From an uncultured Gammaproteobacteria bacterium (lineage in GTDB: Bacteria > Pseudomonadota > Gammaproteobacteria > Arenicellales > JAANXG01), in contig CALZGZ010000138.1 of NCBI GenBank assembly GCA_945787105.1, positions 1 to 35,602 of the forward strand: a stretch of DNA of 35,602 nucleotides. Reading direction: 5' to 3'. The notes under the pieces are model-generated. The model searched no databases and was not told the origin of the DNA. It worked only from the letters and a program-made list of their open reading frames with translations. Shown in pieces: positions 114 through 11,538 of this stretch (position 1 is the stretch's first letter; every line of letters starts with the position of its first letter). The position numbers were made by a program, and so were the translations under genes.

Positions 114-402
114 CTAGCCCGGATATTGCACCAAGGATCCCGGGTGATGGCGACGAGGCTTGCCCCACGCACAGTTCCCCTTCTGTTCCCCTGCTGTGCG
201 GGGACAAGCGCTACGCTGGAGCGAAATGCATGGCCGTAACGATGGGTTGGGTGAGGCGTCAGTGCAGGCGTCGAGACCGAGCCGACGCCGGGATCGGCGC
301 ATACTCGCGCACAAAGTGTCACATCGGGCATCGATCGAATTCCGTACTTCAACCAAGATACTTGCTCTTGTTTTTGCCGCCTTGGTGCAATATCCGGGCT
401 AG
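114..402 (-). repeat. MITE-like element, copy 1 (289 bp, perfect TIRs)
   Basis: A 23-bp terminal inverted repeat is perfect: positions 114-136 (starting CTAGCCCGGATATTGCACCA) are the reverse complement of 380-402. The interior has no convincing gene. It contains one unit of the CTTGTCCCCGC motif (reverse strand, 198-208) next to a CCCC/GGGG hairpin core. Read on the minus strand it aligns along its length with the copies at 4276, 6606 and 23488. It lies in reverse orientation relative to the other three. It ends about 100 bp upstream of the EF-hand gene. A flanking target-site duplication is not clear. The likely origin is a non-autonomous transposable element mobilised in trans; no transposase is in the window. 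Confidence 0.8.
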
Positions 403-946: not shown

Positions 947-2656
947 ATGTCACCCTCGAAGGACGGCGCAGAACTGCTACACGGTTTTCTGCTACGCCTT
1001 CGCTCGCGATACCAGTGCACCGGCAACGGCTCCAGCGGCGAGATCGGCGAACCGGGGTTTTGTTTGGACCTGGCGATCAGCGCACTCAAGGACCTCATGG
1101 AACATAGGCCGGTGCCGTTGCACGTCACCGTATTGGGGCCAACACAGGCTGGCAAGAGCACGATTGTCAACTTGCTGTTGGGCGAAGAGGCGGCAAAGAC
1201 CAGCCCGCTCGCTGGGTTTACGCGCACGTTGCAGGGGTTTGCCGTAAATACTAGCGATACACAGCGACGCGAAGTTAGTGCGTTTTTCTCACCAACACCC
1301 AAAGAATTGGCGTCATTGCGTACTGTCGATGATCCGATTAATGCCTTAGCGAAAACCGGGTATGCCGTGTGGGACACCCCAGATTTTGACTCGTATTCGT
1401 CCCGAGAATATCGTACTTTGATCACGCAGGTCACCGCGTTATCCGATCTGATCATCCTCGTGGTCAGCAAGGAGAAATATTCCGATTGGACGGTGTGGAA
1501 GATCTTGGACTTGTTGTTTCCCTTGCGTCGCCCGCTGCTAATTTGTCTGAACAAAGCAAGTCAGGATCCACAACAACTACGGCTCGCTCTGCAAGGACGG
1601 GTTGACGAATCCCGTTATAACGCACGGCGCGTGCCGATCTGCGACTTACCCTACGTTGACGATGGAAGCCTCGACAGATTGTTGGATAACCCGGCTACAG
1701 ACAGGTTTCTAAGCGCGGTACGCAAGGCTCTACGCCCGATCGATGCGACGGCACGCCGTAAAGGCGCCAATGCCTTCCTCAATGAGCACTGGGAGGAATG
1801 GCTGCAACCGGTTCGGCTGGAACACGATGCAGCCGCGCGATGGCGAAATACCGTCGACGCTGCGGTCCGCGACGCGGTCGGCTGCTACCAGAAACAGTAT
1901 TTAGAGCATTCCCGTCACGACGCCACCTTCAATAGAGCCATGGTGCAGCTCTTGGAGCTACTCGAGATCCCGGCCCTCGCCAAACCTCTGGCGAGCACCA
2001 GACAGTTTCTGACTTGGCCGTTTCGTAGACTGTTCGCAAGCAAGACCGAGTCAGCGACCTCGCGAACCGAGGTCGAACTCAACGTCCTGGGGGAGATTTT
2101 CGAGCACTTATTGTTATTTTTGCGCCGCACGATTGGGGACGGTGTCGGCACCGAGGGACACCATGCCAACTGGTGGCGTGCCATGGCTAAGTTGTTCGAT
2201 GAGCGATCGAGCGCGGCGCGAAAGGAGTTTATCGACGCGGTCGGTCACTATCAGCGCGACTTCGAGTCGGAAATCGCGGTGACGGCGCGCACCCTCTACG
2301 ACAAACTGGCGCAAAGTCCCGCGACCCTAAATAGCTTGCGCGCAGCCCGCGTCACAGCGGATGCCGCCGGCGTAGCGCTGGCCTTTAAGACCGGCGTGAT
2401 CGGGGTCAATGAGTTGGTGCTGACGCCAGCGATGTTGTCATTGACCTCGTTCATAACCGAGAGCGCAGTCGGTAAGTACGTGAATTCAATCAAAGACGAG
2501 CTCAGAATCCGTCAACAACATCAGGTTAACACGCTAATTTCACGATTTTGTAACCGTGCGTTTTCCGGTCTACCCGGGCAGCTACGAGATGACCGGTTAT
2601 TCTTGGTCGAGCGGGAAGAATTACAGCGCATAGAACAACTAAGGCAAACATTGTGA
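947..2656 (+). CDS. Large dynamin-like/Era-like GTPase, first of a tandem pair
   Basis: A P-loop GTPase of 569 residues from the ATG at 947; an in-frame TTG at 896 would give 586. Counting from 896, the Walker A/G1 motif GPTQAGKS is at 81-88, a G3-like DTPDFD at 160-165 and a G4-like NKAS at 219-222. The long helical remainder has a hydrophobic stretch near residues 475-540 that may touch membrane. Size, an N-terminal G domain and a long helical tail fit bacterial dynamin-like or related membrane GTPases, but no family signature pins it down. G4 lacks the canonical Asp (NKxD). The stop overlaps the GTG start of the next gene (GTGA), so the two are almost certainly co-translated. Both proteins share a VVSxExYxD motif after G3, which indicates that they are paralogues. 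A 22-codon leader frame ends 2 bp upstream. Confidence 0.8.
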   Translation: MSPSKDGAELLHGFLLRLRSRYQCTGNGSSGEIGEPGFCLDLAISALKDLMEHRPVPLHVTVLGPTQAGKSTIVNLLLGEEAAKTSPLAGFTRTLQGFAVNTSDTQRREVSAFFSPTPKELASLRTVDDPINALAKTGYAVWDTPDFDSYSSREYRTLITQVTALSDLIILVVSKEKYSDWTVWKILDLLFPLRRPLLICLNKASQDPQQLRLALQGRVDESRYNARRVPICDLPYVDDGSLDRLLDNPATDRFLSAVRKALRPIDATARRKGANAFLNEHWEEWLQPVRLEHDAAARWRNTVDAAVRDAVGCYQKQYLEHSRHDATFNRAMVQLLELLEIPALAKPLASTRQFLTWPFRRLFASKTESATSRTEVELNVLGEIFEHLLLFLRRTIGDGVGTEGHHANWWRAMAKLFDERSSAARKEFIDAVGHYQRDFESEIAVTARTLYDKLAQSPATLNSLRAARVTADAAGVALAFKTGVIGVNELVLTPAMLSLTSFITESAVGKYVNSIKDELRIRQQHQVNTLISRFCNRAFSGLPGQLRDDRLFLVEREELQRIEQLRQTL

Positions 2657-4209
2657 GCAACGAGTTCCAACAAGCCTATGCGGCGCTTACACAATGGGTG
2701 GACACCGCGATGGACCAGGGCTGGCTCACGGAAACAGACCGTAAGTCGCTGTCTAAAATAGAACGGGCCACCGCAGACGACTTATTCGTGACCAGCGATA
2801 AAAGGCCTTTAGTGGTCGGCCTGTTCGGCGGTACCGGCGTCGGCAAGAGCAGCCTTTTAAACCGGTTGGCCGGACAAGTCATCGCCAAGGTCGGGGTCGA
2901 GCGCCCGACCTCCCGGGAGGTCACGCTGTACCTGCACGAGTCCCATGCGCTGGCCTCACTGCCCAAGGAGTTTCCGGTCAACAAGACCCGCGTTGCCCAC
3001 CACCAGGACAATTCAAAACGAGATGTGGTGTGGATCGATATGCCGGACATCGACAGTACCGAAACCGCCAACCGTAAACTGGTGTTCGCATGGTTGCCCT
3101 ATATTGATTGGGTGATCTATGTAGTTAGCCCCGAGCGCTATCGCGACGACGCCGGTTGGCAAATCGTTCGCCAACGCGGACATCGCCACCGGTGGCTGTT
3201 TGTAATGAATCAATGGGATATCGGTACAAAGGAACAGATCGCGGAGTTCGTCACCGATCTCGAACATGCCGGCTTCGATGACCCGCTGGTTCTGACAAGC
3301 AGTTGCGCAGGTGATGCGACACCAGATGAGTTTGAACATATCGCACAGACTATCCGCGCAGCCATTGATTCCCACGGACTGGCCGAACTCAAACGACTGG
3401 GGGTCTGGGCGAGGCTGCGCGACCTCGAGCAGCTGCGTGCCACGTTCAAGACGCGACTCGGGGATGACAAAACCTGGCGGCATTTCGTTCAAGCCCATCG
3501 TGTTCATGCGCAGCAGATATTGACCAAGCTCCGGGAGAGTATGCGATGGCCCATTGAGACCATCGCCAACCGTTTTCGGAATCGAGAACGCGGATGGTTC
3601 GGCATGCGAAAATCGGTCGCGCCAGATAGTATCGAGCTGTCCGATCTATCCGCGCAACTGTGGTCGGCTCAGTCACAACACTATGTGGATGACATCGTCA
3701 GCCAGGCTGCGATCGACACCGAGGTGCATGGTATCGCCACCAGCGCGGTGCAGCGATCGATAAAATTGAGCCTGGCACCGGCGGACGACACGATGATCGG
3801 CGCGGCAACGGCCGGCCTCGAGCGGGCGCTGTCCAAACCGGGCACCCCAGTTTTGCGGAGTGTGCGCTCATTCGCGCGTTTGTCAATGTATCTGCTGCCG
3901 TTTGCCGCCACTGCCTGGGCCGCGTATCACGTCGTGACCCGTTACCAGCAGGCGCTGGCCGACGGTGGCGATTTCCTGGGCATCGATTTCGCTATCCACA
4001 GTCTACTTTTGCTATTTCTTGCCTGGTTGGCGCCGTTTGTAATCTACCGGCTGCTGAGACCCTCGTTGCGCGCCAGCGCCCGGCGTGGCCTGGAATCCGG
4101 GGTAGTCGAGGCCATAGGGATACTAACGGCAAGGCTCGAACAGTCCTATCAGCAACTCGAGCGCGATAGAGCGGCATTGCTTGACTCTCTCGATGCACTC
4201 AGATCATGA
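2653..4209 (+). CDS. Membrane-anchored GTPase, second of a tandem pair
   Basis: A 518-residue GTPase starting with GTG inside the stop of the preceding gene. G1 is GGTGVGKS (59-66), followed by a Thr-containing switch I (ERPTSREVT). G3-like DMPDID is at 129-134 and G4 NQWD at 186-189, where both the Asn and Asp are kept. A TSS triplet further on resembles G5. Two transmembrane helices lie near 410-428 and 443-468, followed by a basic and then coiled-coil-like C-terminus rich in Gln, Leu and Arg. The protein is probably an inner-membrane GTPase working with its overlapping partner, as in bacterial dynamin-like pairs, where two unequal subunits assemble together. Membrane remodelling or stress repair is inference only. 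Unlike its partner it keeps a full G4, so it may be the main nucleotide-hydrolysing subunit. Confidence 0.82.
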   Translation: MSNEFQQAYAALTQWVDTAMDQGWLTETDRKSLSKIERATADDLFVTSDKRPLVVGLFGGTGVGKSSLLNRLAGQVIAKVGVERPTSREVTLYLHESHALASLPKEFPVNKTRVAHHQDNSKRDVVWIDMPDIDSTETANRKLVFAWLPYIDWVIYVVSPERYRDDAGWQIVRQRGHRHRWLFVMNQWDIGTKEQIAEFVTDLEHAGFDDPLVLTSSCAGDATPDEFEHIAQTIRAAIDSHGLAELKRLGVWARLRDLEQLRATFKTRLGDDKTWRHFVQAHRVHAQQILTKLRESMRWPIETIANRFRNRERGWFGMRKSVAPDSIELSDLSAQLWSAQSQHYVDDIVSQAAIDTEVHGIATSAVQRSIKLSLAPADDTMIGAATAGLERALSKPGTPVLRSVRSFARLSMYLLPFAATAWAAYHVVTRYQQALADGGDFLGIDFAIHSLLLLFLAWLAPFVIYRLLRPSLRASARRGLESGVVEAIGILTARLEQSYQQLERDRAALLDSLDALRS

Positions 4210-4275: not shown

Positions 4276-4520
4276 GTGGCCGATACATTTCACCAAAGCG
4301 GCGACAATTACAGCTAACACTTGGTTTAAATGAGGCATGCGATCAATCCCGGCGCGCCGTGTTGTCCCCGAGTAGGCGCCTATCCCGGCGCTGGCTCGGT
4401 CGCGAACGCCGGCGCTTGTCCCTGCCTTGTCCCCGCCTTGTCCCCGCACAGCAGGGGAACTGCGCGCAGGGTAAGTCCGGTCGCCACCGTCCAGGGTTCT
4501 TGGTGCACGATACGGGTTAG
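4276..4520 (+). repeat. MITE-like element, copy 2 (degenerate TIRs)
   Basis: This copy aligns with copy 1 read on its minus strand. The left end contains CACCAAAGCGGC where copy 1 has CACCAAGGCGGC. A shared middle block begins CGAGTAGGCGCCTATCCCGG. The right end is CTTGGTGCACGATACGGGTT followed by AG. The TIRs have diverged, so the copy is older than copies 1 and 3. It carries three tandem CTTGTCCC[CT]GC units at 4415-4447 and then the CCCC/GGGG hairpin core. The right end stops 8 bp before the rarA start codon, so this element forms the immediate 5' leader of rarA. Confidence 0.72.
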
Positions 4521-4528
4521 AATGGTTT

Positions 4529-5845
4529 ATGTTGGCTGACGACCAAGCATTACGCCCGCTCGCCGATCGGATGCGTCCGCGCAAGATAGACGAGTTCATG
4601 GGACAGGACCATCTGCTGGCTGAAGACAAACCGCTACGGCGGGCATTGGAGGGCGGTCTATTGCACTCGATGGTGTTTTGGGGTCCGCCGGGCAGTGGTA
4701 AGACCACACTCGCGCATCTACTCGCGCAGCGCGCCGACGCCCAGTTCCTGCGCATCTCGGCAGTGCTGTCGGGAGTGAAGGATATTCGCGCAGCGGTGCA
4801 AAGCGCCAAGCAGGCGCGTTGCGATCAGCATCGGCCCACGGTGTTATTCGTCGACGAAGCCCATCGCTTCAACAAGGCGCAGCAGGACGCGTTTCTGCCC
4901 CACGTCGAGGACGGCACCGTAACCTTCGTCGGCGCAACCACCGAAAATCCCTCGTTTGAACTGATCCCGGCCCTGTTGTCTCGTGTGCGGGTGTATGTAC
5001 TCAAGGCCCTGGACCGACCCGCAATACGAAAAGTCATCGACGTGGCGCTGACCGACCCGTCGCGGGGGCTGGGAGAACAAAAGATAACCATTGACGAACC
5101 CCTGCGCGACCAGATTGCCTTGGCGGCGGACGGCGACGCCCGCCGGGCACTGAACTTTCTCGAGATTGCCGCCGATCTTGCCGACAACACACATAACGGA
5201 TTGTTGGTTACCCCCAAGATCGTGCGCGAAGTGATTACCGGCGGTATGCGACGCTTCGACAAAGGCGGTGATGTGTTCTACGACCAGATATCCGCGCTGC
5301 ACAAGTCGGTTCGCGGGTCAGCGCCGGACGCGGCGTTGTATTGGTACGCGCGTATGCTCGACGGCGGCTGTGATCCAATCTATATCACGCGCCGTGTCGT
5401 GCGCATCGCGTCAGAGGATATCGGCAACGCCGACCCGCGTGCCCTGCACATATGCCTGGACGCCTGGGATGCCTACGAGCGGCTCGGCAGTCCCGAGGGC
5501 GAGCTCGCCATCGCGCAAGCCATTGTTTATCTCGCCTGCGCCGCCAAGAGTAACGCCGTTTACACCGCATTCAACGCCGCCGGCGCTGACGTGAAAACAT
5601 TGGGCTCCCTGGAGGTGCCCATGCAGCTGCGTAATGCGCCGACCAAGCTGATGAAACAGCTTGGTCACGGCCAACGCTATCGCTATGCCCACGACGAACC
5701 CGAAGGTTACGCGGCCGGCGAGAACTACTTTCCCGACGGCATGCCGCGGCAAACCTACTACCGGCCGGTCGATAGAGGTCTGGAACAGAAGATTTCCGCG
5801 AAACTTGCCCGACTGCGCGCGCTGGACAAGAAGACGAAACGCTAG
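4529..5845 (+). CDS. rarA: Replication-associated recombination protein A (MgsA/WRNIP1 family AAA ATPase)
   Basis: RarA acts at stalled replication forks; it is a tetrameric clamp-loader-like AAA+ ATPase. The sequence shows the family N-terminus (LRPLADRMRPxxxDEFMGQ), Walker A GPPGSGKT at 52-59, Walker B FVDEAHRF around 106-113 and a sensor-1 region GATTENPSFEL. The C-terminal half is typical, with the blocks DGGCDPIYITRRVVRIASED and NYFPDGM. The length of 438 residues is close to the usual 440-450. The ATG at 4529 is the only well-placed start, but it lacks a clear ribosome binding site. It lies 8 bp after the right end of a MITE-like copy, so the native leader has been replaced or displaced. 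The common neighbours lolA and serS are absent here. Confidence 0.96.
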   Translation: MLADDQALRPLADRMRPRKIDEFMGQDHLLAEDKPLRRALEGGLLHSMVFWGPPGSGKTTLAHLLAQRADAQFLRISAVLSGVKDIRAAVQSAKQARCDQHRPTVLFVDEAHRFNKAQQDAFLPHVEDGTVTFVGATTENPSFELIPALLSRVRVYVLKALDRPAIRKVIDVALTDPSRGLGEQKITIDEPLRDQIALAADGDARRALNFLEIAADLADNTHNGLLVTPKIVREVITGGMRRFDKGGDVFYDQISALHKSVRGSAPDAALYWYARMLDGGCDPIYITRRVVRIASEDIGNADPRALHICLDAWDAYERLGSPEGELAIAQAIVYLACAAKSNAVYTAFNAAGADVKTLGSLEVPMQLRNAPTKLMKQLGHGQRYRYAHDEPEGYAAGENYFPDGMPRQTYYRPVDRGLEQKISAKLARLRALDKKTKR

Positions 5846-6605: not shown

Positions 6606-6839
6606 AGCTAGCCCGCATTGCTCACCAGACGCCCCCCTATTCATGACTGTGCACCGACAAAGCCCGCAGCGTTTCTTCCAAGAAATGGCGACATTGTCAG
6701 CTGGCAAGAATAGAGGCGGGACGGTCCCGGCTCTGGCTGGTCCCCGCCTTGTCCCCGCCTTGTCCCCGCACAGCAGGGGGCTCAGGTGCATGAGCCCGGG
6801 GCCAGCATCCGAGATCCTGGTGAGCAATGCGGGCTAGCT
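6606..6839 (+). repeat. MITE-like element, copy 3 (234 bp, perfect TIRs)
   Basis: A 23-bp TIR is perfect: 6606-6628 (starting AGCTAGCCCGCATTGCTCAC) is the reverse complement of 6817-6839. The TIR sequence differs from that of copy 1 (GCATTGCTCACC against GGATATTGCACC), but each copy matches within itself. This suggests that pairing of the two ends is under selection or is maintained by gene conversion. The interior has two full CTTGTCCCCGC units (6748-6769) plus a partial one, and the CCCC/GGGG hairpin core. No coding region is convincing. It lies in the gap before the large GGDEF/EAL gene. Confidence 0.8.
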
Positions 6840-7074: not shown

Positions 7075-10000
7075 TTGAGTGTAACCAATAGCGTGCTACG
7101 GACTCTGGTCGTTGCCGTCGGGACACTGATGTGCGTCGGGTGGACGTCGCTGCCTGCCGCCGACAAGTCCGGCCCCGATCTCAGTCACAAGAGGGTGTTG
7201 CTGCTGTTCTCCTACCACCCGACGTTCGTCAGCTCGGACACGATCCTGCAAGGCATACGGTCGGTGCTCGATAGACACAAATTGACCCTCGATATCGAGT
7301 ATATGGACAGCAAGCGTGTACTGGACGACGTGAGTAAGGACAACTTCTTGCGGTTACTCTCCCACAAGCTCGCCAAACGCCCGCCCTACGATCTGGTGAT
7401 GCTCTCGGACGACAATGCACTGAACTTTGCCCTGGACCATCAGGATCAACTGTTTCCGAAAGTCCCGATGGTGTTTCTCGCGGTGAATGATGTACACCGG
7501 GCCGGGCAGATGGATGATCATCCGTCGATTACCGGCGTCGTCGAGGCACTGTCTTATGAGCGCACCATCGACCTCATGCAGTCCTTGCAGCGGCCGCTGA
7601 AGAAAATCGTAGCAGTCGTCGATACGACCCCCAGTGGTGACGCCGATCGATCAACCTTCGATCACCTATCCCAGCTATATCCGGATATCGACTTTCAGGT
7701 CCTGTCTTTGGGAGACCTGAGTTGGGAACAACTCGCGCAGCAGTTGGCGCATATTGGACCCAACGCCGCGGTTCTCCGTCTGACCGCATTTCGCGACAAA
7801 GCGGGGAAGGTGTTGGGGAAACGACAGGCGCTGGTCCGGATGACGGAAAGTTCCACGGCGCCGGTCTATGTACTCCGGGAAAATGCATTGCACAGCGGCG
7901 CTCTGGGGGGCGTTGTCTTGAGCCACCGCGAGCAGGGCAGACAAGCGGCTCTGATGGTTGAGAAGGTGCTGCAGGGAGCGCCGGTCGCTTCTATCAAGGT
8001 GATGCGTCAAAGCCCCAATCGGCCAATGTTCGAGTACGCGGCCTTGAAACGCTTTGGTATTTCATCGGCCTCTCTTCCGGTGGATAGTGTCGTGGTCAAC
8101 ACACCGGCGAACTTTATGAAACGGCATGCCGGGCTCGTTGCGATCGTGCTTGCCGTCGTTGTTTTTCTCGTTGGTTTGAGTACCTACCTGATGTGGCAAA
8201 TCCGCGCTCGCAAACGTGCTGAGTCAACCCTGCAGGACAGCAAGATTAGATATCAAACTATTTTCCAGTCAGCGGGAGTATCCCTATGGGAGGAAGACTA
8301 TTCGCAGGTTCAGGCGGCACTCGATGACCTGAAAGCCCAGGGAGTAGAAGACATACGTGGCTACCTGGATGACCATCCGGAGTTTGTCCGCGATGCGCTG
8401 AATCGTATCGACATTCTCGACGTCAACGATGCCAGCCTGAAACTATTCGGTGCCAAGAATAAGGAGCAATTGCTGGGCTCTTTAGAAGAACTATTTGTTC
8501 CAGAATCGTTCACTGTATTTAAAGAGGAACTCATTGCCATTGCGGATGGAAAGACATGCTTCGAGGGCGAAGCAAGTCTTAAGACCTTGCAGGGACGGCG
8601 CATGAACATGCTAATGACATTGGTGGTCCGCGGGCAACAGGATGAGTTAGACAGGGCGCTTGTGAGTTTTATCGACATCACCCAACGCAAGCAGGTAGAG
8701 GAGGCGCTGCGCGAAAGCGAAGAGCACTTCCGCAACTTGATCGAAGGCTCGATCGAAGGAATTGTCATCGATCGACAACGCAAACCGATGTTCGTGAATC
8801 AGAGCTTTGCCGACATGCTCGGCTACGAGTCACCGGACGAGATCGTGACGATAGAGTCCATGGATGCCTGTGTCGCGCCCCACGAGCGTGAACGCCTCAG
8901 CCGCTACACCAATGCGCGCATGAAGGGGGAACCGGCCCCCAGTCAGTATGAATACGAAGCGCTGCGCAAGGACGGGTCGACGGTGATCTTGCAAAATCTC
9001 GTGAGGACGATTCATTGGCAGGGCGAGCCCGCCATCCAAAGCACGGTCATTGACATTAGCGACCGCAAGCAGGCGGAGGCGCGACTGCGCCGCAGCCAAG
9101 CCAGCCTCGCGGTAGCCCAACGTATCGCGCTTCTAGGCAGCTGGGACTGGAACCTGGTGACCAACGAGCTCGATTGGTCGGATGTGGTCTACCGCATGTT
9201 TGCTATCCAACCCGAGGGGTTCGCTGGGACTTATGAGGCGTTTCTAGATTTAGTCCATCCCGACGACCGGGAAATGGTAATGCACTCGGTCGATAAGGCT
9301 TTGTATCAGCAGCAACCCTACGACATTAAACATCGAATCACGCTACCGTCCGGGGAAGTACGGGTCGTGCATGAACGGGCAGAGGTTACCTTTGATGGGG
9401 CGGAAAAGCCCACCCGTATGCTCGGTACGGTACAGGATGTCACCGAACGCGAGCGGATGGAGGAGGCGCTGCGAAACAGCGAACAGCGTTTTCGTGATGT
9501 CGCCGATGCGGCCTCGGACTGGATCTGGGAGATGGGCCCCGATCTGCGCTTTACCTATTTCTCGGGCCGCATCGAACAGGTGACCGGCACCTCACCCACG
9601 TACCTGATTGGTAAAACCCGTGAGGAAGTGATGTCCGAGACGGTACACTCAGAGGCCGGGAGTAGGCACCTGGACGATCTCGAGGCGCGACGGCCGTTCC
9701 GCGACTTCGTGTACGAAGCGAAGCTGGAAAAGGGCACGCGATATCTAAAGATCAGCGGCAAACCGATCTTCGACACGGATGGCGTATTTCGGGGTTACCG
9801 CGGCACCGGAACCGACATCACCGCTCAGAAGCGGGCCGAGGCGGCGCTGGGAGCGAGCGAAAGGCGCTATCGTGTATTGTACGACGACAATCCTTCCATG
9901 TACTTCACCGTCAGTGCCGACGGCACAATATTGTCGGTCAATCCGTTCGGCGCCCAACAGTTGGGTTACACCGAGCAACAACTGACCGGCACGTCATTAC

Positions 10001-11538
10001 TCGCGCTGGTTCACAGCCACGACCGAAACAAGGTGAAGCGACACCTGGACAACGCGACTCAAGCACCAGGTCAGTTATATCGATGGGAGGCGCGCAGGAT
10101 ACGCGAGGACGGAAGCGTACTGTGGGCGCGAGAAACCGCTCGCGTGACCGAGGATGTGGACGGCAAACAGGTTATTTTGGTTGTCTGCGAGGATATTACC
10201 GAGGCCCACAAGCTGGCTGCAGAGATTTCCTACCAAGCAACCCATGACTCCTTGACCGGCTTGGTTAATCGACGCGAGTTCGAAAAACGGCTAACGCATA
10301 ACCTGCGAAGTGCGAGTGACGACCACTCGGAGCACGCCCTATGTTATCTCGATTTGGACCAGTTCAAGGTCATAAACGATATCTGCGGGCACATCGCGGG
10401 TGACGAACTGCTGCGGCGATTGGGGAAGCTGCTCAACGACAAGGTTAGAAAGCGAGACACCCTGGCGCGTTTGGGGGGCGATGAATTCGGCGTCTTATTG
10501 GAAGATTGCTCTCTAAAGCAGGCGGAACGTATCGCCGAAGACCTACAAAAGACGATTCGCGATTTCCGGTTTGTTTGGGACGAAAAAGTTTTCACTATCG
10601 GCGTTAGTATTGGTTTGGTTCTCATCGGTAGACCTGACGAGACAGTGACCAGCGTTCTGAGTATGGCTGACGCCGCATGTTATGCCGCCAAAGACGCGGG
10701 GCGTAACCGCATTCATGTCTATCACGAGTCCGATAGCGAACTTGCACGAAGACATGGGGAGATGCAACTGGTGTCGCGTATCAACCATGCGCTCGAGGAG
10801 AATCGATTTCATTTGGTCTACCAGCCCATTGTTCCGATCGTCAATGTGGGTGACAAACGTCAGCACTTTGAGTTGCTAATCCGGATGCAAGACGAAACCG
10901 GCGGCACGATATCACCGAACGTGTTTCTGGCGGCTGCCGAGCGCTACAATCTTTCTGTTGCGCTCGATCAATGGGTGATTTCCACTGCCTTTGCGTGGCT
11001 CACAGATCAAGCACAACACCTGGATAGCATTTATCTGTGCTCCATAAACCTGTCGGGACACTCCCTGGGAGATAAGAATTTTCTAGAGTTCGTCATCGGA
11101 CAACTCAGTGAAATGGCTATTCCTCCAGAGAAGATTTGTTTTGAAATTACAGAGACCGCGGCGATAGCTAACTTTGACAGCGCCATCCACCTCATCGGCA
11201 CCCTAAGAGCACGCGGCTGCCGTTTTGCGCTGGATGACTTTGGCAGCGGTTTATCCTCGTTCGCTTATCTCAAGAACTTGCCCGTTGACTTTCTAAAGAT
11301 CGACGGCATGTTCGTAAAGGATATTGTTGACGATCCGATCGCGTTGGCGATGGTGAGATCGATCAACGAAATCGGCCAGGTCATGGGGAAACAGACAATC
11401 GCCGAGTTTGTTGAAAATGACGCGATACTCGAGAAGCTGCGGGAAATTTCTATTGATTACGCTCAGGGATTCGGTGTTGGCCGGCCGCGGCCACTGTCGG
11501 AAATGATATCACCCCCCAAGCTCAGCGTCGCCGGTTAG
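7075..11538 (+). CDS. Multidomain receptor: ABC-substrate-binding sensor, PAS x5, GGDEF, EAL
   Basis: A 1487-residue inner-membrane c-di-GMP enzyme. Residues 1-30 form a signal or anchor. About 33-335 match the periplasmic ABC-type substrate-binding sensor domain (RVLLLFSYHPT, YDLVMLSDDNALNF, PMVFLAVNDV). A transmembrane helix spans about 353-374. Five PAS-like segments follow (about 395-545, 548-670, 675-800, 801-925, 928-1050). The GGDEF motif is intact at 1134-1138, with an inhibitory I-site RKRD five residues upstream. The EAL domain starts near 1245: the EAL motif reads ELL at 1266-1268, and the metal/catalytic blocks INLSG, FEITET, LDDFGSG, LKIDG and AEFVE are kept. Both synthesis and hydrolysis of c-di-GMP are thus possible; which one dominates cannot be told. 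The start is TTG with an AGAGGGG ribosome binding site. The likely signal is a small periplasmic ligand. Confidence 0.93.
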   Translation: MSVTNSVLRTLVVAVGTLMCVGWTSLPAADKSGPDLSHKRVLLLFSYHPTFVSSDTILQGIRSVLDRHKLTLDIEYMDSKRVLDDVSKDNFLRLLSHKLAKRPPYDLVMLSDDNALNFALDHQDQLFPKVPMVFLAVNDVHRAGQMDDHPSITGVVEALSYERTIDLMQSLQRPLKKIVAVVDTTPSGDADRSTFDHLSQLYPDIDFQVLSLGDLSWEQLAQQLAHIGPNAAVLRLTAFRDKAGKVLGKRQALVRMTESSTAPVYVLRENALHSGALGGVVLSHREQGRQAALMVEKVLQGAPVASIKVMRQSPNRPMFEYAALKRFGISSASLPVDSVVVNTPANFMKRHAGLVAIVLAVVVFLVGLSTYLMWQIRARKRAESTLQDSKIRYQTIFQSAGVSLWEEDYSQVQAALDDLKAQGVEDIRGYLDDHPEFVRDALNRIDILDVNDASLKLFGAKNKEQLLGSLEELFVPESFTVFKEELIAIADGKTCFEGEASLKTLQGRRMNMLMTLVVRGQQDELDRALVSFIDITQRKQVEEALRESEEHFRNLIEGSIEGIVIDRQRKPMFVNQSFADMLGYESPDEIVTIESMDACVAPHERERLSRYTNARMKGEPAPSQYEYEALRKDGSTVILQNLVRTIHWQGEPAIQSTVIDISDRKQAEARLRRSQASLAVAQRIALLGSWDWNLVTNELDWSDVVYRMFAIQPEGFAGTYEAFLDLVHPDDREMVMHSVDKALYQQQPYDIKHRITLPSGEVRVVHERAEVTFDGAEKPTRMLGTVQDVTERERMEEALRNSEQRFRDVADAASDWIWEMGPDLRFTYFSGRIEQVTGTSPTYLIGKTREEVMSETVHSEAGSRHLDDLEARRPFRDFVYEAKLEKGTRYLKISGKPIFDTDGVFRGYRGTGTDITAQKRAEAALGASERRYRVLYDDNPSMYFTVSADGTILSVNPFGAQQLGYTEQQLTGTSLLALVHSHDRNKVKRHLDNATQAPGQLYRWEARRIREDGSVLWARETARVTEDVDGKQVILVVCEDITEAHKLAAEISYQATHDSLTGLVNRREFEKRLTHNLRSASDDHSEHALCYLDLDQFKVINDICGHIAGDELLRRLGKLLNDKVRKRDTLARLGGDEFGVLLEDCSLKQAERIAEDLQKTIRDFRFVWDEKVFTIGVSIGLVLIGRPDETVTSVLSMADAACYAAKDAGRNRIHVYHESDSELARRHGEMQLVSRINHALEENRFHLVYQPIVPIVNVGDKRQHFELLIRMQDETGGTISPNVFLAAAERYNLSVALDQWVISTAFAWLTDQAQHLDSIYLCSINLSGHSLGDKNFLEFVIGQLSEMAIPPEKICFEITETAAIANFDSAIHLIGTLRARGCRFALDDFGSGLSSFAYLKNLPVDFLKIDGMFVKDIVDDPIALAMVRSINEIGQVMGKQTIAEFVENDAILEKLREISIDYAQGFGVGRPRPLSEMISPPKLSVAG

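Follow-up and report, generated by a model that had tools for sequence, protein, structure and literature searches.

Few pairs of bacterial dynamin-like proteins (DLPs) have been studied, and such pairs inform the mechanism of the mitofusins. In Streptomyces, DynA is partnered by DynB, a protein with two transmembrane segments (PMC8748795, PMC5827413). A Pseudomonas gene annotated as a LeoA orthologue is reported in PMC6344628. Here we consider two overlapping genes, G1 and G2, on contig CALZGZ010000138.1 of an uncultured gammaproteobacterium of the order Arenicellales; the whole stretch of 35,602 nucleotides that was analysed is referred to as the window. G1 and G2 appear to represent a little-studied version of this known two-part membrane machine. 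More specifically, we put the probability that they encode a heterotypic, divergent dynamin-like GTPase pair that tethers or remodels the inner membrane, in the manner of Cj-DLP1/2 and DynA/DynB, at roughly 70%. No paper recognisably devoted to the pair was present among the literature matches listed. The genes and their overlap are:

947 to 2656, + strand: G1, first dynamin-like GTPase, predicted soluble or peripheral (569 amino acids counted from the ATG)
2653 to 4209, + strand: G2, second dynamin-like GTPase, with a predicted membrane-anchor hairpin (518 amino acids, GTG start)
2653 to 2656, + strand: GTGA, the common stop/start of G1 and G2, presumed to couple their translation

The GTG start of G2 is preceded by AAGG, eight bases ahead. 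The two large open reading frames (ORFs) and their overlap had been described in the original prediction, made from the bare sequence, which also took the products for paralogues. Profile-profile comparison agrees with the latter: G1 and G2 match in an alignment of 162 G-domain columns with E 4.5e-18 and a probability of 99%. As a control, the G1 and G2 profiles were compared to a third dynamin-like GTPase encoded in this genome, yielding E-values of 0.12 and 0.0016; the control is the weaker because this third protein was a single sequence.

The G1 and G2 genes are one unit and are inherited together. Within the best 80 of the 98 G2 relatives in the genome collection (loci L039-L118), G1 adjoins G2 in 76, five of which are partial at contig ends. 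The conservation of the two-gene arrangement across genomes, suggested as a check at the outset, is thus strong. Operon pairing with a second DLP gene, usual but not universal for bacterial DLPs, is found here as well. The stop/start overlap is kept beyond chance: of 77 adjacent pairs, counting that of the window, 72 have it (start codons set by a script rule), and in 48 it is 20 bases long. The trees of 72 pairs have 52 of 69 splits in common, and the patristic distances correlate with r 0.96, against a maximum of 0.22 in 500 shuffles. Considering supported splits only, the G2 tree contains 40 of the 44 from the G1 tree, the G1 tree contains 39 of the 45 from the G2 tree, and three pairs of supported splits conflict.

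A sample of 369 genomes of the class, screened at E 1e-10, revealed the same association. G2 was found in 27 genomes, spanning 14 families, G1 in 27 and both in 26. The singletons lie at contig edges: in G462, with G1 only, the contig stops six bases past the match, and in G403 the match to G2 starts at base 7. Two genomes just above the E limit were left uncounted, namely G293 (58% complete; 1.4e-10), where a C-terminal stretch matched that is probably a genuine fragment, as well as G269 (1.5e-10), where the locus, L147, holds a different GTPase. The genes are adjacent in 24 of the 26 two-gene genomes. In the other two (G355 and G450, family f156) they lie on the same contig, some 2.5 and 10 kb apart; read by eye, the intervening genes differ save for one peroxiredoxin-like ORF, and both GTPase genes have been kept. 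Among 100 relatives, matches to G1 and G2 occur in 12 of 13 genomes of the own family and in 0 of 87 from the other families of the order. In a phylum sample only the own genome was found at E 1e-10 (1 of 299, among the matches listed), which is a weak result.

The dynamin-like reading of the pair is supported by the predicted folds of the monomers. Alignments were made of 55 G1 and 66 G2 homologues, picked from 80 and 81 candidates; most sequences above 88% identity were removed, a near-identical G1 was re-added by hand, five G1 fragments were excluded and two G2 rows mistaken for G1 were taken out. AlphaFold2 monomer models built from these alignments reached a mean predicted local distance difference test score (pLDDT) of 85.1 and a predicted template modelling score (pTM) of 0.81 for G1, and 83.8 and 0.71 for G2. 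The G1 model consists of an N-terminal helix, the GTPase domain and then long helices. The G2 model has the same plan, to which a hydrophobic hairpin (residues 399-467) and a C-terminal helix of 44 residues are added. In both predicted models the N-terminal helix, the helices after the G domain and the C-terminal helices make up a neck bundle. Structure prediction of each protein, another of the proposed checks, therefore returned stalk helices in both, and no stalk or neck is missing. Foldseek placed the Nostoc BDLP structures 2j68 (6.9e-8) and 2j69 first for G1, followed by Drp1, the Cj-DLP pair, LeoA and Fzo1, and Cj-DLP 5oxf_C (3.8e-10) first for G2. With VIA-align the best match of G1 was Fzo1 (9kfd_B; Z 19.0, rmsd, i.e. 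root-mean-square deviation, 5.7, 315 residues, model residues 1-569) and that of G2 was Mfn1 (5yew_B; Z 16.6, rmsd 3.4, 278 residues, 1-518), tied with Fzo1 and EHD4. In both models the mitofusin alignments extend from one terminus to the other, as expected for a shared neck. Generic GTPases align over some 150-180 residues with Z 14-16; the best non-dynamin GTPases gave Z 16.0 over about 165 residues for G1 and Z 14.9 over 163 residues for G2.

Both models combine long helices with a hydrophobic hairpin, which might serve as a trunk with a lipid-binding tip; the first anchor helix of the window G2 is marginal:

2318 to 2461, + strand: conserved helical hairpin of G1, hydrophobic, residues 458-505, for which a contact with membrane or partner at the tip of the stalk is proposed
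3847 to 4053, + strand: G2 predicted membrane-anchor helical hairpin, residues 399-467, with a marginal core at 410-428 and a strong one at 446-464

The hydrophobic patch attributed to G1 from the outset was recovered at residues 474-492 and 490-508 (KD19 1.48 and 1.41). The hairpin around it has a low-confidence turn at 483-485 and, judging from the order of the helices in the model, would lie at the tip of the stalk. Outside the G domain, conservation in 20-residue blocks is highest within residues 461-500 (0.79 and 0.76, the next being 0.74 at 321-340). By a simple hydropathy rule (KD19 at least 1.6, after residue 200) the G1 homologues have no hydrophobic segment in 28 of 55 cases, one in 17 and two in 10. 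G1 looks soluble, with a conserved hydrophobic hairpin. As for the two C-terminal transmembrane helices ascribed to G2, the second is strong (KD19 2.28), whereas the first scores only 1.25.

The GTPase motifs set both proteins apart:

1136 to 1159, + strand: G1 P-loop GPTQAGKS, residues 64-71
1370 to 1393, + strand: G1 altered G3 motif WDTPDFDS, residues 142-149, invariant in 55/55 save for the third position (T in 53, S in 2)
1550 to 1561, + strand: G1 divergent G4 motif NKAS, residues 202-205, with N and K kept in 55/55 and D at the fourth position in 9/55
2827 to 2850, + strand: G2 P-loop GGTGVGKS, residues 59-66
3031 to 3057, + strand: G2 altered G3 motif WIDMPDIDS, residues 127-135, D-x-P-D-x-D-S in 66/66
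3208 to 3219, + strand: G2 altered G4 motif NQWD, residues 186-189, with N and D kept in 66/66 and, at the second position, Q in 57, H in 8 and K in 1

The canonical GTP-binding motifs are GxxxxGKS, T, DxxG and (N/T)KxD. Of these, G1 and G2 keep the P-loop and the switch I threonine only, which are conserved in both alignments, except that one G1 row deviates through the P-loop, probably by a frameshift. The glycine of DxxG is replaced by aspartate (DxPD) in every aligned homologue of G1 (55/55) and of G2 (66/66). The G3 consensus reads WD[T/S]PDFDS in all G1 and W-x-D-[M/L]-P-D-x-D-S in all G2 sequences, and the G4 consensus NKxx and N[Q/H/K]xD, respectively; the two proteins have WxDxPDxDS ... 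VVSxExYxD in common around G3. The divergent G4 of G1 had been recognised correctly at the outset, whereas its changed G3 (DTPD) had been missed, and the complete motif set once credited to G2 does not hold, as its G3 is DMPD rather than DxxG and its G4 is NQWD rather than NKxD. In a looser scan of 33 further loci the family P-loop was present in 30 and followed by DxPD in each; the other three comprise two C-terminal fragments and L147, whose GTPase has DxPG. Because their G3 and G4 are non-canonical, we file G1 and G2 as a divergent variant and not as canonical GTP-hydrolysing DLPs. The G3 change common to both suggests, at the level of the motifs, that switch II works differently in this family than in textbook GTPases. 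In a divergent relative (L145) both genes have DxPD together with an NKxD-type G4 (NKSD and NKCD), and the G4 losses may therefore be later than the G3 change.

The original description as a dynamin-like pair is supported by the predicted monomer folds, the family-model tests and the conserved neighbourhood. Several observations nevertheless weigh against the reading as a membrane-active dynamin-like pair. With a G3 that lacks the glycine and with both G4 motifs altered, normal GTP turnover cannot be assumed. The anchor of G2 is not uniform either: by the hydropathy rule its homologues have two segments in 36 of 66 cases, one in 27 and none in 3, and in the window G2 the first helix falls below the 1.6 cut and only the second passes, which makes a two-helix membrane anchor likely rather than certain. 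The Foldseek TM-scores are low (0.20-0.38, query-normalised, among the matches listed) and the global rmsd is large, presumably an effect of differences in the bending of long stalks. The Z margin over generic GTPases is modest, about 3 for G1 and about 1.7 for G2, so that the longer aligned length carries the dynamin-like argument. Pairing is not complete, since G2 lacks an adjacent G1 in four of the 80 loci (L050, L056, L071 and L113, where the upstream DNA covered was 0.8-6 kb long); at L056 a C-terminal fragment resembling G1 lies some 4 kb upstream. In addition, the same-genus genome G004 has a second, solitary G2-like gene (L162:5905-7554), with DTAD as G3 and NHWD as G4, which by eye adjoins an ArsA-type ATPase. 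Finally, the Pfam model Dynamin_N scores 28.5 bits for G2, above its cut-off of 27, but only 19.9 bits for the window G1. The generic MMR_HSR1 is above its cut-off for both window proteins and fits as many homologues as Dynamin_N or more (66/66 G2 and 54/55 G1, against 66/66 and 40/55 for Dynamin_N at E of at most 1e-3). Searches of solved structures, by sequence and by profile, mostly hit P-loops; in the profile searches of the PDB these belonged to many different GTPases and ATPases, with no full-length dynamin among the matches listed. We count the GTPase domain as dynamin-type, though MMR_HSR1 fits it as well.

The MMR_HSR1 matches also favour a pair of Era/EngA-like GTPases of the TrmE-Era superfamily, with helical extensions and a role at the ribosome or on RNA instead of the membrane, as do the top sequence-profile matches in the PDB, which are the P-loops of EngA/Era or YlqF. 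We consider this improbable. All matches of G1 and G2 to Era, EngA and similar NCBIfam models are far below the cut-offs: G1 reaches 30.1 bits against 306.7 for EngA (TIGR03594) and 28.9 against 116.25 for Era (TIGR00436), and the best score of G2 is 26.1 against 237 (PRK00089). No RNA-binding domain is above cut-off among the Pfam matches, the whole-chain structural matches are mitofusins, and G2 has a strongly hydrophobic helix. The comparison of family models that had been proposed thus gave no specific non-dynamin family at its cut-off, only MMR_HSR1 for both proteins and Dynamin_N for G2.

A Leo-type or other dynamin-based pair for defence against phages is quite improbable. The PADLOC models for LeoA weakly match G1 (7.3e-6, residues 57-82) and G2 (4.6e-6, residues 28-90), and LeoBC matches G1 (2.9e-4, residues 59-212). 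However, the LeoA matches amount to 23-24 bits on short N-terminal stretches and that of LeoBC to 18.1 bits, for models given with no curated cut-off, and there is no family-level match to Leo. A tblastn search with both window proteins at 1e-5 gave no match in 72,556 plasmid records, and no relative was confirmed on viral contigs, where 237 and 24 stretches fitted the patterns; the collection of phage records was not searched. Moreover, the G1 and G2 gene trees closely agree, and both the window and many Methylococcales loci have neighbours of the housekeeping type. The least probable alternative, a system that builds the intracytoplasmic membranes of methane oxidisers, accords with the many Methylococcales among the best 80 loci and with the frequent proximity of the pair to DUF2959, PabB, amino-acid kinase and hydantoinase-like genes (a neighbourhood that we take to be linked to one-carbon cofactor synthesis), but as a general role it was rejected, since ammonia or methane monooxygenase (AMO/pMMO) shows no association in the class sample (2/27 G2-positive versus 8/342 other genomes, Fisher p 0.16) and is absent from the own genome. 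A lineage-specific use in Methylococcales is possible.

What the analysis shows for G1 and G2 is their gene architecture and co-inheritance, their motifs and the predicted monomer folds. Returning to a dynamin-like pair at the inner membrane, we infer GTP binding, heteromer formation, a membrane topology and tethering or remodelling for G1 and G2 along the following lines. G2 would be anchored in the inner membrane via the helical hairpin late in its stalk, whereas G1 would be cytosolic and contact the membrane or G2 with its conserved hydrophobic hairpin. The overlapping genes would be co-translated, giving matched amounts of the two proteins. Both heads would bind GTP and pair across or along the membrane, and assembly-stimulated turnover would then drive the tethering, bending or fusion of inner-membrane patches. 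The changes in G4 are complementary, in that G1 keeps the N-K and G2 the N..D, and it is our hypothesis that the two heads complement each other. A stronger version, drawn from the motifs and in our view rather unlikely, would have the pair constitute a distinct heterotypic subfamily of the Gammaproteobacteria that has given up the DxxG glycine and split G4 between the partners, with turnover requiring a head-to-head G1:G2 dimer, i.e. an obligate mitofusin-like machine.

Other genes surround the pair. The original prediction had offered the protein encoded upstream as an extra component:

467 to 787, + strand: EF-hand protein with a signal-peptide-like N-terminus, alternative ATG at 500, probably not a component

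This ORF matches Pfam EF-hand_7 (8.5e-10). It is found upstream in 7 of 12 own-family loci, where about 1.5 kb upstream of G1 was covered, and in 4 of the 80 wider loci, where the covered length varied; judging from equal scores, these four probably repeat genomes already counted among the seven. We rejected it as a component, as it is clade-restricted and as its N-terminus is signal-peptide-like by eye, whereas the GTPase heads are expected in the cytoplasm.

DUF2959 is a family of unknown function. A DUF2959 gene occurs in 28 of the best 80 loci, in Methylococcales, always upstream of G1 and on the same strand; in the loci of this order the pair often follows PabB (22), an amino-acid-kinase-like gene (25) and DUF2959 (28). 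DUF2959 is present in 14 of 27 pair-bearing genomes of the class and in 31 of the other 342, with a Fisher p of 1.4e-7 that takes no account of phylogeny. As a third component it was rejected and kept as a lead, being absent from the window's own genome and near the pair in only one (G347) of the 14 genomes that have both. One paper names the family. In 39 of the best 80 loci a small conserved lipoprotein-like ORF lies upstream of G1 on the opposite strand; it is weakly DUF6694-like (E 0.006, below the cut-off), and two examples scanned had no Pfam match above cut-off.

Downstream of the pair in the window is a gene for an MgsA/RarA-type ATPase (4529-5845). Further on, an ORF of 1487 amino acids (7075-11538) contains by eye a sensor region, several PAS-like repeats, GGDEF and EAL. 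The block of EF-hand and GTPase genes is bracketed by two copies, in opposite orientations, of a 23-base palindrome-like repeat, TTGTCCCCGCACAGCAGGGGAAC, at 185-207 (- strand) and 4438-4460 (+ strand), and a weaker copy is at 6764-6782 (+ strand). This repeat is an abundant REP-like interspersed element, with 127 copies across the 4.8 Mb of the genome when up to one mismatch is allowed, 62 of them forward and 65 reverse, and 0 for the reversed pattern taken as control. A scan for promoters and terminators gave no more matches than in shuffles.

The short length of the proteins (569 and 518 amino acids), the apparent division of labour between a soluble and an anchored partner and the invariant change in switch II give the pair its particular value. 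The system would allow one to ask what role the switch II glycine of dynamins has and whether an active site can be shared by two partners. In addition, the pair is present in culturable methanotrophs, with Methylococcus, Methylomonas and Methylotuvimicrobium records among the relatives.

A comparison with other dynamin-like systems places the pair as follows. The own genome encodes two further dynamin-like GTPases of 657 and 658 amino acids (L154:1327-3300 on contig C351 and L155:1312-3288 on C361), beside MutM- and YggT-like genes by eye. Like G1 and G2 they match Dynamin_N (about 60 bits each); unlike G1 and G2 they have the canonical DTPG and NKVD, and the 3.6 kb covered around each contains no further dynamin ORF. 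LeoA/LeoBC likewise are bacterial and dynamin-like, with the weak PADLOC matches and a Foldseek match to 4aur for G1, but the NCBIfam model DLP_LeoA_gen gives G2 10.5 bits against a cut-off of 325 and is unlisted for G1. The mitofusins Mfn1 and Fzo1 provide the best whole-chain alignments, from N- to C-terminal helix, and carry their membrane anchor late in the chain, as predicted for G2. They differ in being eukaryotic, with 11-16% identity in the top rows, in having no overlapping operon, and in their G3, which is DxxG where G1 and G2 have DxPD. Cj-DLP1 and Cj-DLP2 of Campylobacter jejuni (5oxf, 5owv) are encoded side by side by genes of unequal size, and Cj-DLP heads the Foldseek matches of G2 and ranks within the top five for G1. 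On the other hand, the profile searches showed no match to the Cj-DLP chains in the best 60 rows, the N-terminal assembly domain of Cj-DLP1 is termed Campylobacter-specific in its paper, and a cytosolic complex was reported for Cj-DLP whereas G2 is predicted to be membrane-anchored. The work at the sporulation septum done by DynA/DynB of Streptomyces could presumably not be shared as such by the hosts of G1 and G2. Going by the architecture described in the two papers, DynA/DynB are two interacting dynamin-like proteins of which one is membrane-anchored, and the predicted anatomy of G2 as the anchor and G1 as its mobile partner fits the DynB/DynA scheme.

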